A stretch of DNA of 64,000 nucleotides, taken from NCBI GenBank assembly GCA_030834965.1, contig JAUQWW010000044.1, positions 1 through 64,000 on the forward strand, read 5' to 3'. This stretch comes from Gallionellaceae bacterium (GTDB lineage Bacteria > Pseudomonadota > Gammaproteobacteria > Burkholderiales > Gallionellaceae). Positions within the stretch are counted from its first letter, which is position 1; each line of letters opens with the position of its first letter. The position numbers and the translations under genes are program-made. The notes under the pieces are model-generated. The model did not search any database and was not told the DNA's origin. It saw nothing but the letters and a program-made list of their open reading frames with translations. Of this stretch, positions 40,741 to 45,406 are shown in pieces.

Positions 40741-41235
40741 GACGGCATTGAGTTCGAGGTAATTGTTGGTATTACCATGGCAGCAGAGCAAGAGTTTTAT
40801 TATACACACGGATGAAGAATCTGAATTTCTGATAGTGACAGACTTACCTTTTGGGTAATGCCTGAACACCGTCTTCTGGTTGTTAACAGCAATATGCCAA
40901 CTTCCGGTATGTGTAGGCTGCTGCCCGTGGCCAAGGTCAGCTTTATCCAGATGGAAATTTATTAAGGCCAGTGACGGCTTTGGGGCGCGCAGTTAGCAAG
41001 GACGAAATCTCCTGGGTGCCATTAAGAGATATTCAGCGCAGCCTCGGCAAGATTGCGACGAGGTTTAAATATATAGGCATTTTGCCTATTTTATCGGTGT
41101 AATCGGTATGCTCTAATCTGGCATCTGTCTGTATTGTTACCGCATATGCGGACAGATAAATTCGATTGGCTTCAATGAATCCGTCACTTATCGAAAATGC
41201 GCATGCCTCACTATTTTTAATAGTACAGACCGGTG

Positions 41236-41258
41236 GGACCGTCTAATAACTGTTAGGC
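41236..41258 (+). other. attI-like recombination junction at the left end of a cassette
   Basis: GTTAGGC (41252-41258) is the consensus integron core site (recombination between G and T). It is preceded by GTCTAATAACT, which with GTTAGGC gives two facing core-type boxes a few bases apart, as in attI simple sites. The matching attC-like site is at 43181. No integrase gene lies on either side in this window. The 545-base gap 40741-41285 otherwise holds only presumed promoters for the two divergent operons. Confidence 0.5.
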
Positions 41259-41285
41259 AGCACGTTCGTACTCAGGAGAATAACC

Positions 41286-42650
41286 ATGGATGAAACGAGA
41301 CGCGATTTCCTGAAACTAGCCGCCGCTGCGACAGTGTTCAGCGCACTCGGTCAACGGCAGGCGTTCGCGCAAAGCAGCGCGAGCATCGAACCCGGCGACC
41401 GGGTGTATATCACCAACGAGGATTCGAACACCATCACGGTAATCGACCCGCGCAGCAATACGGTCGAGACCACCATCAACCTGACCAGCTTTGACGAGGA
41501 CGCGCGTCCGCCATTCCGCCTGATGACTGCCGGGGTAATGCCGACGCACGCAGCGATGATCCACAAGCCGCTCTATCACGGCTGCATCGACGCGCACGGG
41601 GCGGTTCCTTCACCCGACGGCCGGTTCCTCGCCACCAGCGGTCGAGGCTCAAGCAATATTTACCTCATCGATGCGGTCAACAAGAAGGTGGTGGGCAACA
41701 CGTCCAATCCGCTTGCTGGCCCCAATACCAATACCGAACGGCTTTCAAGCGGCATTCTGATCGGTCGCGAGCCGCACGAGCCGACCTTCACGCGCAACGG
41801 CAAGGAACTGTGGGTGACGCTGCGGGGCGAAGACCGGATCGTCATCCTCGATGTGGAGCGCGCCATGCGTCAGGCCGGAGGCGTCGAGTCCGGCGCGATT
41901 CTCCGCTACATCAACGTCATCAATGGACCTGCGCAGGTCTGGTTCGACGCCAGGGGCGCGCTGGCGTTCGTCGCCAGCCAGAAGGTATCGAAAGTCGATG
42001 TGTTCCGAGTCAACCCGGATGCAAACGGTTATTCGCAGCCGCAACGCCTGACGACGATCGACATCACTGCGCAGGACAAGCCGGCATTTACGCCCTTTCT
42101 CAAGACCACGCCGGATGGCAAGGAAGTCTGGTTCTCGCACAAGCTCGCAGACACGGTGTCGGCGCGCTCGACGGCCGAGCCTTTTGGCTTTCTCGATGCC
42201 GTGCCGCTCGGCAATATGGCGCGCCCCAACCACGTTGAGTTCGTCGAGAACCGCAAGGGCAGTGTGGTGTACGCGAGCCTCGCGCGAGTGGACGATAACG
42301 GCCCGGGCGGTGTCGCCGCGAGCCAGATCGCCATCATCAACCGCAGCGCCGCGCCCGGCACGCGCAAGGTAGTGGGGACATTCTTTTCCCGTGCGCGCGA
42401 GGCGCATGGCATCTGGACGAATCCGGCGAATGACCTGCTCTATATCGCGCACGAGCAGGACGAACTGCCTGGCACGCCTAACGCCGGGCAGACCTGCTGT
42501 TCCGCATTCGATGTGTCCGATCCATTCAACCCGAAATTCATCGCGCAGATTCCACTCGGAGCATTGAAACTACCCTCCGGTGAGTTACGCAACAAGAAGA
42601 GCATCAACCTTGTTTACGTGCGCCCCGGTTACAAGGGCCAGACGGCATAG
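41286..42650 (+). CDS. Tat-exported YVTN beta-propeller protein
   Basis: 454 residues with AGGAGA before the ATG. The N-terminus MDETRRDFLKLAAAATVFSA is a twin-arginine signal, implying export in the folded state, often with a cofactor. The mature part is a seven-bladed propeller of the YVTN type: DRVYITNEDSNTITVIDP, GRFLATSGRGSSNIYLIDA, GKELWVTLRGEDRIVILD, AFVASQKVSKVDVFRV, KEVWFSHKLADTVS. Several His and Met residues could bind metal. With the DUF305 gene 8 bases downstream it forms a two-gene unit bounded by integron-like sites. Substrate unknown; context suggests copper. Confidence 0.83.
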   Translation: MDETRRDFLKLAAAATVFSALGQRQAFAQSSASIEPGDRVYITNEDSNTITVIDPRSNTVETTINLTSFDEDARPPFRLMTAGVMPTHAAMIHKPLYHGCIDAHGAVPSPDGRFLATSGRGSSNIYLIDAVNKKVVGNTSNPLAGPNTNTERLSSGILIGREPHEPTFTRNGKELWVTLRGEDRIVILDVERAMRQAGGVESGAILRYINVINGPAQVWFDARGALAFVASQKVSKVDVFRVNPDANGYSQPQRLTTIDITAQDKPAFTPFLKTTPDGKEVWFSHKLADTVSARSTAEPFGFLDAVPLGNMARPNHVEFVENRKGSVVYASLARVDDNGPGGVAASQIAIINRSAAPGTRKVVGTFFSRAREAHGIWTNPANDLLYIAHEQDELPGTPNAGQTCCSAFDVSDPFNPKFIAQIPLGALKLPSGELRNKKSINLVYVRPGYKGQTA

Positions 42651-42658
42651 GAGGCGCG

Positions 42659-43090
42659 ATGATGCGATGGTTTTTGCTATTACTGTGGCTAATTGCCGGG
42701 GCGGCGCTGGCGCAGGACCAGCACCACGGTATGCGCGGGGGCGATTCGCCTGAGCGCCACGACACTACTTTCGCGCGCTTCGCCTCTGGGATGGATGCCG
42801 GCATGAACACGATGATGCGTGACATGCATGCTCCAGGCTACACCGGCAACGCGGATATCGACTTCCTCGCGATGATGATTCCGCACCACGAAGGCGCTGT
42901 GGAAATGGCGCGGCTGGCGCTGATCTACGGCCGTGATCCGCTCACGCGGAAACTCGCTGAGGAGATCATCGCGAGCCAAACGGTTGAAATAGAAGGAATG
43001 AAACGGCGCCTTGCGATTCTGCGCGCCAAGCCCAGCCCGGAGCAGGGTGAGTTCCCCGCACTCGGCGGCACGCGCGGACCCAGCCAGTAA
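42659..43090 (+). CDS. DUF305 ferritin-like exported protein
   Basis: 143 residues; AGGAGG lies right before the first of two ATGs. A signal peptide (FLLLLWLIAGAALA) precedes QDQHHGMRGGDSPERHD and a DUF305 domain: FARFASGMDAGMNTMMRDMH, then DIDFLAMMIPHHEGAVEMAR with the signature MIPHHxGAxxMA, and EIIASQTVEIEGMKRRLA. The domain is a four-helix bundle; homologues (CopM-like) bind copper in the periplasm. It is the second gene of the cassette-like unit. Confidence 0.87.
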   Translation: MMRWFLLLLWLIAGAALAQDQHHGMRGGDSPERHDTTFARFASGMDAGMNTMMRDMHAPGYTGNADIDFLAMMIPHHEGAVEMARLALIYGRDPLTRKLAEEIIASQTVEIEGMKRRLAILRAKPSPEQGEFPALGGTRGPSQ

Positions 43091-43180
43091 TCCTGGCTGC
43101 ATAGGAGCCGATTTACTCGCGTGCGCCGCAGCCAGTGACGTAAACAATTGGGATGATCAGACTCGACTAATTGCAGCCAT

Positions 43181-43237
43181 GTCTAACTTGTCATTCGAGG
43201 CGACGCCTTACGGCGCGCCTCAATTCGGACGTTGAAG
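43181..43237 (+). other. attC: attC-like site (integron cassette recombination site)
   Basis: The R'' box GTCTAAC (43181-43187) and a GTT core (43231-43233, GTTGAAG) enclose an imperfect palindrome. In it GAGGCG (43197-43202) pairs with CGCCTC (43216-43221), CGCC (43204-43207) pairs with GGCG (43212-43215), A203 is left extrahelical, and the loop is TTAC. This is the geometry of integron attC sites, about 57 bases long here. Joining its left part with the GTTAGGC at 41252 would give a standard attC. Thus the 41253-43231 stretch has the structure of one gene cassette. Confidence 0.68.
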
Positions 43238-43275
43238 TTCAGCTATCGGGAAAATCGACTGTCTCTTATGTGTCT

Positions 43276-44866
43276 ATTGTGTTGAAAAACTCGCTTTTGT
43301 TTTTTCCCTGCCACCTGACTGAATTTTTCTTTCAGTCTATTTTTTGATTTTCAGCAGATTATCGGATTGGATTTGACGGTTCTGTTGCCCCTATCTGCTT
43401 TTATGCAGGTACTACGCTTGCTTCCTGTGCTGCTGGTGTAAGCCACTTGGCCATTCGCCTCAAATTCTGCGCAGTTGCTGCTAGCAGAAACTCATCTTGC
43501 GCACCGCTGTGGCCCCGCAATCGAAGCTTGTCCAGTTTCAAGATGCGCTTGAGGTGGGCAAAGAGCATTTCGACTTTCTTGCGTTCACTTCGTGATTGTT
43601 GATATTCAGGCGTCAGGTTAATTTGGCGAGCAACGTCCCGTGCGTTTTCATGGATGCTGCGTGCGATTTTGCGAAACTCAGTGTTTGGGCAGCAACGATC
43701 CTTCTTGGGGCATGCCGCACAATCTAACTGGCTTGAACGGTAGATGATCGTATCTTCATTCGTTATTCTCTTGCGCGGCTTTTTGAAAGGACGCCAATTG
43801 CTGCGCAGTGCATGCCCCTCAGGGCATCGGTACTCGTCGGCTTGTTCATCCCACTGAAAATCACTACGCGAGAACGTGCCATCTTTGCGCTCCGACTTAT
43901 CACACACCGGAACATGCGGTTCAATCTGTTTCTCGTCCACCAGCCAGTTAAGCATGGCCGCTGATCCATAGTTAGTGTCGCCGACGAGGCGCTCTGGTTT
44001 GATATCGAACTTCTCCTCAACTCGATCAATCATCGCTCTGGTTGCATCTACTTCAGCAGCCTTGTTGACTGCAGAGGCTTCGACATCGACGATGATGCCT
44101 GCCTTGAGGTCGATCAAATAGTTTGTGCAATAAGCAAAGAAGGCAGGCCCCCCTGTCGCACCTGTCCAGGTTGCCGATGGATCAGTCGTAGAAACAAACT
44201 TGGGTATGAATGAGGGATCATTCGTTTCTTCAAGCGCATCAAGGTATTCCCTCACCGCACGGGGCGCATCTTCCGAGTGAGTCCAATTCATTGCTTCTTC
44301 GCCGGGTATGCTTTGCATGCGTTGTGCGTCCGCTTTAATAATGCTGGCATCGGTCGCAAAACCTTCACCGCGAACCAGTCCTTCGGACATGCAACGTTGC
44401 AACACACTCTCAAACAAATGACGGAAAGCGCCGCTCTCGCGAAAGCGCCCATGCCGATTCTTGGAGAATGTGGAATGATCCGGTACTGCATCTTCCAGTC
44501 CCAACTTGCAGAACCAGCGATAGGCCAGATTCAAATGCACCTCTTCACATAGCCTCCGCTCAGAGCGAATACCAAAACTGTAACCGATGACCAGCATACG
44601 AATCATCAGCTCCGGGTCAATGGAGGGGCGTCCGGTGTGGCTGTAAAACTCTGAGAGGTGTTGGCGAAGATCGCCTAGGTCAAGATACTGATCGATGCCG
44701 CGGAGGAGATGATTCTTTGGTACGTGATCTTCGAGGTTGAAAGAATAGAAAAGCCGTTCTTGGTTACTCGTCTGAAACCCCATCATGGCAAGGCTCCCAG
44801 CCTGATTTGATACGCGTTATTTTACTCCTCGCAACATCAAAAATCGAGAGAGTTTTTCAACACAAT
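43276..44866. mobile_element. IS1182-family insertion sequence
   Basis: The terminal inverted repeat ATTGTGTTGAAAAACTC is at 43276-43292 and, inverted, at 44850-44866 (17 of 17). The 1.59-kb element has one transposase gene on the minus strand. It separates the cassette-like unit from CusRS. Its ends share TGTTGAAAAACTC with the MITE at 5195-5414. I could not define a target duplication. Confidence 0.88.
43401..44783 (-). CDS. IS1182-family transposase
   Basis: 460 residues from the ATG at 44783; the ATG three bases earlier is equivalent. The N-terminus MGFQTSNQERLFYSFNLEDH and RGIDQYLDLGDLRQHL, GRPSIDPELMIRMLVIGY are typical of this family. DDE-type landmarks: EGFATDASIIKAD, ERLVGDTNYGSAAMLNW and RKKVEMLFAHLKRIL. 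A cysteine-rich insertion (CAACPKKDRCC) lies before the last motif. It looks intact and probably functional. Confidence 0.92.
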   Translation of the reverse strand: MGFQTSNQERLFYSFNLEDHVPKNHLLRGIDQYLDLGDLRQHLSEFYSHTGRPSIDPELMIRMLVIGYSFGIRSERRLCEEVHLNLAYRWFCKLGLEDAVPDHSTFSKNRHGRFRESGAFRHLFESVLQRCMSEGLVRGEGFATDASIIKADAQRMQSIPGEEAMNWTHSEDAPRAVREYLDALEETNDPSFIPKFVSTTDPSATWTGATGGPAFFAYCTNYLIDLKAGIIVDVEASAVNKAAEVDATRAMIDRVEEKFDIKPERLVGDTNYGSAAMLNWLVDEKQIEPHVPVCDKSERKDGTFSRSDFQWDEQADEYRCPEGHALRSNWRPFKKPRKRITNEDTIIYRSSQLDCAACPKKDRCCPNTEFRKIARSIHENARDVARQINLTPEYQQSRSERKKVEMLFAHLKRILKLDKLRLRGHSGAQDEFLLAATAQNLRRMAKWLTPAAQEASVVPA

Positions 44867-44972
44867 ATGTCGTGAACAGCATGTCACGAAGTGCCGCTTT
44901 CCGACATTGAAAAATCTGCTGCCGCTAAAAGGATGAGTTGCCCGATTGTGGAACTTGGCGAATTAGCGCAAT

Positions 44973-45406
44973 CGACCCTTATGCACAGTGCGCAATTATG
45001 CAAAGTTTATCGTCCGCATCGGACTTGATTGGCTATTTTGCTTGGGTTGCGAGAAGCAGGCAGAGCCTGAACTGGACATAATTTCTGCGATATGAATGTA
45101 TCGATGCGTTTCTTCTTTGCGGAAACCACGATGAATTTGACAAGCCACGCCACACCGTGACCCCACCGCTTTGACGAACTAGCGCAGCGGTTGCCTACTC
45201 GCCGTCGCGCTGATGCAGTATTGGATCTAACGCAGTTACTGTTCAATCGGCCAACTGGTAGCAGCTCTGCCACACAAGTAATTATGCAAAGTGCGCCCCG
45301 CTACAACTCCTATATGCATTGGGTCGGACGGGCCTCTTTGCTATTATCTACGCATAATTGCGAACTGTGCATAAGGGTCGTTATGCAAAGATTTGCATAA
45401 CGACCC
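44973..45406. repeat. Inverted repeat segment with perfect 32-bp palindrome
   Basis: A 29-base arm at 44973-45001 (starting CGACCCTTATGCACAG) recurs inverted at 45352-45380 with 28 of 29 matches. At the right side the palindrome GGGTCGTTATGCAAA-GA-TTTGCATAACGACCC spans 45375-45406. The motif AATTATGCAAAG occurs again internally (45281). The enclosed 350 bases hold no convincing gene. The structure looks like the ends of a recombinase-mobilised element whose gene is gone; the left outer part may have been removed when the IS1182 arrived. The rest of 44867-45522 is featureless. Confidence 0.6.

Follow-up and report, generated by a model that had tools for sequence, protein, structure and literature searches.

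A two-gene, copper-linked integron cassette at one of many dispersed attI sites in Gallionellaceae

How might an integron gene cassette come to lie in a chromosomal copper island that has no integron integrase beside it? The textbook integron has one intI, one attI, and one array, and most known cassettes carry one short ORF. The question arises from a 64-kb window (the whole stretch of DNA analyzed), which is contig C94 of a Gallionellaceae genome of 3.07 Mb in 104 contigs, referred to here as the host genome. A first-pass annotation of the window had read two copper-linked genes as an integron cassette without an integrase and had considered that, if confirmed, they would be a new kind of cargo. 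We assign a probability of roughly 0.87 to the following reading: positions 41253 to 43231 are a two-gene cassette inserted between the G and the TT of one of many dispersed, integrase-less attI platforms, with an integrase presumably acting in trans. Relatives were surveyed in 158 genomes of the family, many of which are draft assemblies. The attC and attI models were built in this analysis, and the E-values that they return are rough.

Recombination sites and junctions of the cassette

At the left end, the first-pass annotation had pointed to an attI-like core, GTTAGGC (positions 41252 to 41258), with a facing box, GTCTAAT (41242 to 41248). These two boxes are a piece of a conserved block of ~130 bp that extends far beyond them and comprises a leader and a recombination site (41125 to 41252, forward strand). 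A model of the block, R2, was built from 30 copies in related genomes with the window copy left out; it matched positions 41125 to 41255 at 98.6 bits (E = 5.6e-28, searched in its genome), which bears out the proposed core site at this boundary. When positions 40862 to 43274 were used as a DNA query against the whole family, ~100 matches were retrieved from 67 other genomes, nearly all of them to positions 41121 to 41258 and ending at GTTAGGC. In an alignment of more than 30 copies, conservation extends to ..GTCTAATAACTG/TT (GACCGGTGGGTCTGTCTAATAACTG/TT is also given as the core-end sequence; the slash marks the cleavage point, G41252/T41253 in the window) and the copies are fully divergent beyond it, as expected of an attI that precedes differing first cassettes. 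The block thus has a fixed polarity and a constant sequence 5′ of the first cassettes up to G/TT, and judged by its sequence we regard it as a genuine attI. An adjoining intI gene is present neither at the window copy nor at most others, being found only at loci L173, L179/L200, L201, and L202.

At the right end lies the proposed attC (43181 to 43237, forward strand), in which an R'' box, GTCTAAC (43181 to 43187), is followed by a paired imperfect palindrome whose stem has an extrahelical base and by a GTT (43231 to 43233) that opens the R' core, GTTGAAG. Because attC cores vary, a regular expression recovered no sites from the host genome, and a covariance model with explicit structure, R1, was therefore built from 30 attC sites of the host's family, with the window site left out. 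The training sites came from integrase-linked arrays of related genomes and were picked by a strict stem scorer; a looser, earlier scorer gave many false sites and was therefore replaced. The base pairs of R1 covary well above shuffles. Over the 64 kb, the site scored 34.5 bits (E = 7.4e-6), with the runner-up at 10.8 bits, and the DNA fold of its bottom strand gave z = -3.3, with 1 of 200 shuffles equally good. The first-pass annotation had offered to give up its reading if no covariance model matched here; one did, and score and fold together lead us to regard the site as a real attC. By eye, its nearest look-alike is GTCTAACCTGTCATTCGAG...CCCTCAATTTTACGTTGGGC at locus L151 of the same family. 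Used as a similarity query against plasmids, the attC gave chance matches only, and nothing in Rfam matched the region. The final base of the R' core is off consensus; GTTGAAG is part of the target's right flank, as expected of an inserted cassette.

The cassette proper (41253 to 43231, forward strand, 1979 bp) is bounded at each end by a G/TT cut (G41252/TT and G43231/TT), and the flanks on both sides match those of other platforms. Platforms also agree in the DNA that follows the last attC (G/TTGAAYGNCYGCTTTCTGRAAA..GTGTCG..), and exact GTTGAAYGNCYGCTT occurs four times in 0.82 Mb, each time at an attC or a platform end. With a position weight matrix (PWM) from 17 right flanks of other platforms, the window position ranked first of 2019 GTT positions, and blastn matched the window flank to that of L170 (E = 2e-5). 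Since this flank is conserved and is matched by the window (43232 to 43274, forward strand, TTGAAGTTCAGCTATCGGGAAAATCGACTGTCTC..TGTGTC), the cassette sits between two halves of a target that others use. A pattern search of the 158 genomes found no empty platform, so the uninterrupted target was pieced together from the flanks only. Could chance have produced this picture, from a terminator-like palindrome behind the DUF305 gene and a fortuitous GTTAGGC? Cores of seven bases are common and the hairpin alone reaches only its z value of -3.3, but the scores of both models and the rank of the right flank refute the idea, and its probability is vanishingly small.

The native flank runs up to an IS1182-family insertion sequence (43275 to 44867, reverse strand) with a transposase at 43401 to 44786 and terminal inverted repeats at 43275 to 43295 and 44847 to 44867. 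Its target duplication, TGTC (43271 to 43274 and 44868 to 44871), splits the conserved TGTGTCG motif of the right flank, and we take the insertion to be later than the cassette/platform arrangement. No second copy of the element is found in the host genome. We also considered whether the insertion sequence marks the cassette's right boundary and rejected this, as the end and target duplication of the element lie ~40 bp past the attC. Farther to the right, 38-bp inverted repeats (44973 to 45010 and 45343 to 45380) surround TATGCAAAG motifs, and the same region (44973 to 45406) holds a perfect 15-bp palindrome at 45375 to 45406; these may be the termini of a transposon that is small or degenerate.

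Dispersed attI platforms and their integrases

The window attI type gave ~180 model matches in 90 of the 158 family genomes, a minority of them partial and some consisting of a leader without a core, with up to 7 per genome at different places. Single-contig genomes also carry copies, and nearly every copy examined has different genes upstream. Usually, one cassette or a few lie downstream of a platform. At platform loci, each of the 50 attC matches (34 distinct, from 24 platforms) is on the strand of the attI and downstream of it, and the first gene begins 0 to 59 nt past the core, in the array direction, at 24 of 24 platforms. Other families of the order also have similar sites, and there too attC lie nearby; the attI-type sequence was not found in plasmids, nor the exact core in viral contigs. 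The literature searched, with partial coverage, yielded no report of attI sites dispersed without intI. This dispersed, mostly integrase-less attI family, which the first-pass annotation missed, is the more surprising part of the result.

Integrase-less copies share a common upstream module that is unlike that of intI-linked copies, and the window has the integrase-less version. Positions -280 to -218 from the window core match -194 to -131 of L193 at 75% (blastn), and a remnant of the module (GTGCCATTAAGAGATATTC, 41009 to 41031, forward strand) was located by blastn of upstream regions and alignment, with ~90 bp of unrelated DNA between it and the attI block.

The earlier remark that no intI is visible holds for the window, where no functional intI lies in cis and no relic was found apart from unrelated tyrosine recombinases. 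The host genome has no complete intI, as judged by TIGR02249 matches above cut-off, and holds only a 5′ fragment on contig C36 (L013, 1444 to 1750; also L098), where a PF13495 N-terminal domain is present and the frame is then lost. Flanked by an attI-like GTTAGAA, cassette-like ORFs, and a weak attC (23.6 bits), this fragment is the relic of a second integron in the host genome, and it belongs to another IntI type than the one that matches the window attI. Elsewhere in the host genome, a two-gene cassette without intI, its second gene CopG-antitoxin-like, lies at G000:C50:744-1361 (L220), and a cluster without intI on G000:C89 (L221, 5060 to 6530) resembles at least three cassettes.

Across the family, intI is present in 87 of 150 sampled genomes, and at the 30 intI loci examined the attI differs from the window type. 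The window type instead belongs to a second type of IntI (86 to 100% identity), which is found in only four genomes, once as a pseudogene, with the attI adjoining each; a contig-end fragment in L173 may represent a fifth genome. The matching IntI adjoins only 4 of ~38 attI copies examined, and one further copy has a weak intI-like remnant. Per genome, attI copies and intI of any kind are not associated (Fisher p = 0.32), so no integrase can be pinned to the attI copies in this way.

An ordinary intI-attI-cassette integron might once have stood in the window and lost its intI by local deletion. In keeping with this, the same attI type adjoins full intI in four genomes, other contigs of the host genome retain the 5′ fragment as well as remnants of cassettes, and decay of integrons into integrase-less arrays is a proposed origin of clusters of attC sites lacking integrases (CALIN) (PMC9024848). 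However, what lies upstream of the window attI is the module typical of integrase-less copies and not intI remains, the window has no intI relic, and the relic on C36 comes from an IntI of the other type. We therefore consider local deletion improbable and count the window among the integrase-less attI platforms.

A different history would have the attI block itself travel, in a cassette-like unit that ends in an attI, and the window would then record a two-site insertion and not a resident platform. Platforms do occur in tandem or back to back: L219 (2050 to 4650, G023:C40) has two tandem platforms, each with its own downstream segment, and L231 and L232 have close pairs. At L233, a later locus, an attC lies just upstream of the platform in the same orientation, and delta-attI-type cassettes are known to be active with IntI1 (PMC12901181). 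Against this, no attC was found upstream of or reversed to the platform at 49 platform loci (L154 to L202), the left ends of platforms have no obvious common GTT boundary, and most platforms are single. We rate a traveling attI as rather unlikely and retain the resident platform as the preferred reading.

Two further observations concern platform surroundings. Group II intron matches (Rfam RF02003 and RF00029) lie just upstream of the L219 platforms. In addition, platform flanks on both sides (right flanks at L191, L192, L194, and L219; left modules) look like one type of palindromic repeat, ..GNCYGCTT..GTGTCGAAAGCGGACATTC.., as if a dispersed intergenic repeat contained the attI platforms or had copies on either side of them.

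Cargo, leader, and a possible route of entry

The first cassette gene (41286 to 42650, forward strand) encodes a 454-residue YVTN beta-propeller with a Tat signal (PF10282, E = 1e-10; TIGR02276; TIGR01409), and an AGGAGA that resembles a ribosome site lies just 5′ of its ATG. The second (42659 to 43090, forward strand), 8 bp farther on, encodes a 143-residue DUF305 protein of the CopM metallochaperone family (PF03713, E = 1e-17), with a signal-peptide-like N terminus; its NF049983 (CopM) score of 90.5 bits barely passes the cut-off of 90. Genes for CusA, the CopA multicopper oxidase, CopRS, and a CusF-like protein flank the cassette.

Could the pair be a long-standing copper operon of the chromosome that simply happens to have attI-like and attC-like sequences on its two sides? 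It is a widespread operon elsewhere (Proteobacteria, Nitrospirota, and plasmids), and the window is a copper island. Yet in 82 of 82 homologous gene pairs, DNA similarity is confined to positions 41364 to 43084, inside both junctions, and a DNA search of the other family genomes found nothing of the two genes beyond 35-bp pieces. DNA conserved across the junctions of such an operon was the other finding that the first-pass annotation had said would tell against it; none was seen in the 82 relatives, and we hold this explanation to be very improbable. In the two plasmids examined, the pair lies beside genes for an ECF-type sigma factor, a sulfite oxidase, and a cytochrome c.

The first-pass reading of a cassette with its attC, at an attI and with no adjoining integrase, is supported; the assertion of a new kind of cargo was overstated. 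R1 detected no attC near the pair at the 82 homologous loci; its single match with E ≤ 1 in their 915 kb (23.6 bits, E = 0.037) lies away from the propeller and DUF305 genes. Since the pair is common without attC nearby, it is unusual only in its packaging as a cassette. Sister platforms also hold cassettes of two or three genes, and metal-resistance genes are rare but already reported among integron genes (7 BacMet matches; PMC7370490). CopM, a DUF305 protein, binds copper in Synechocystis (PMC4335983), and the cassette pair may serve copper tolerance in this island.

Within the attI block, a short ORF (41175 to 41246, forward strand; MNPSLIENAHASLFLIVQTGGTV and stop) of 23 codons ends at the core, and its 72-nt frame is kept in most copies. 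It has no codon-position bias and no sign of protein-level selection, and we accordingly claim no coding role for it. A promoter with a sigma-70 consensus was looked for at the attI, without success. Expression from the platform leader is nonetheless plausible, since a stretch that resembles a ribosome site lies in the block, along with this ORF and its end in the core. Leaders of this type, with a comparable short peptide, also stand before ordinary genes: in the host genome (G000:C102; L230, 982 to 1100), a leader without a core stands before a patatin-like gene, its peptide MNQLMSVKLHGSRLLIVQTVGRACA having a stop that overlaps the start codon, and in three relatives (L235 to L237) a coreless leader stands before mobB. 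The coreless leader resembles a leader-peptide or promoter module shared across the family, and its place before ordinary genes suggests that a host expression signal became joined to attI.

Under the preferred reading, an integron integrase from elsewhere, in the cell or an ancestor, would have acted on the cassette and joined the folded bottom strand of its attC to the attI, as in known integrons. A copper metallochaperone pair would thereby have entered a metal-resistance island as a cassette, to be expressed from the platform leader or from its own ribosome sites, and its products would serve the surrounding island in the periplasm. The cassette would now be fixed, because no functional intI is left in the host genome. 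With ~180 attI matches in 90 of 158 genomes versus a matching integrase in 4, the attI seems to be a dispersed, integrase-free docking site and perhaps an expression site. More tentatively, and as a reading less likely than not, one may picture a distributed integron: many small attI platforms with their own leaders, chromosome-wide, loaded in trans by one integrase. If true, cassettes would be placed and expressed beside relevant host operons, here a copper island, and not in one array. Whether an integrase can load a distant chromosomal attI, and whether the leader expresses the cargo, are now testable questions.

Comparison with known systems

The segment resembles integron gene cassettes in its G/TTRRRY ends, paired R''/R' and L''/L' arms, extrahelical base, genes in one direction, and short 5′ leader; it differs in carrying the two genes of a periplasmic, copper-linked pair. 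The attI1 of class 1 integrons is likewise a site before the array with a short ORF (ORF-11) that ends in the core. The window attI type, however, is unrelated in sequence, mostly without intI, multicopy, and dispersed.

Cassettes without a neighboring intI are already known as CALIN (PMC9024848), to which the window is alike in that respect. It has a single attC, whereas the CALIN default is two, and it has a genuine attI. IntegronFinder does not seek attI outside class 1 and by default calls CALIN from two attC (PMC9024848); single-cassette platforms are therefore invisible to current surveys. Delta-attI-type cassettes, known in mobile integrons (PMC12901181), similarly place attI material away from its canonical position beside intI. 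They carry pieces of attI1 or attI2 at cassette 3′ ends, whereas in the window type the attI stands before the cassettes at scattered chromosomal loci. Finally, the DUF305 protein resembles CopM of Synechocystis (PMC4335983) in scoring above the NCBIfam cut-off (NF049983), in being apparently exported, and in its copper island. It differs from CopM in being cassette-borne and paired with a Tat-signal propeller gene.
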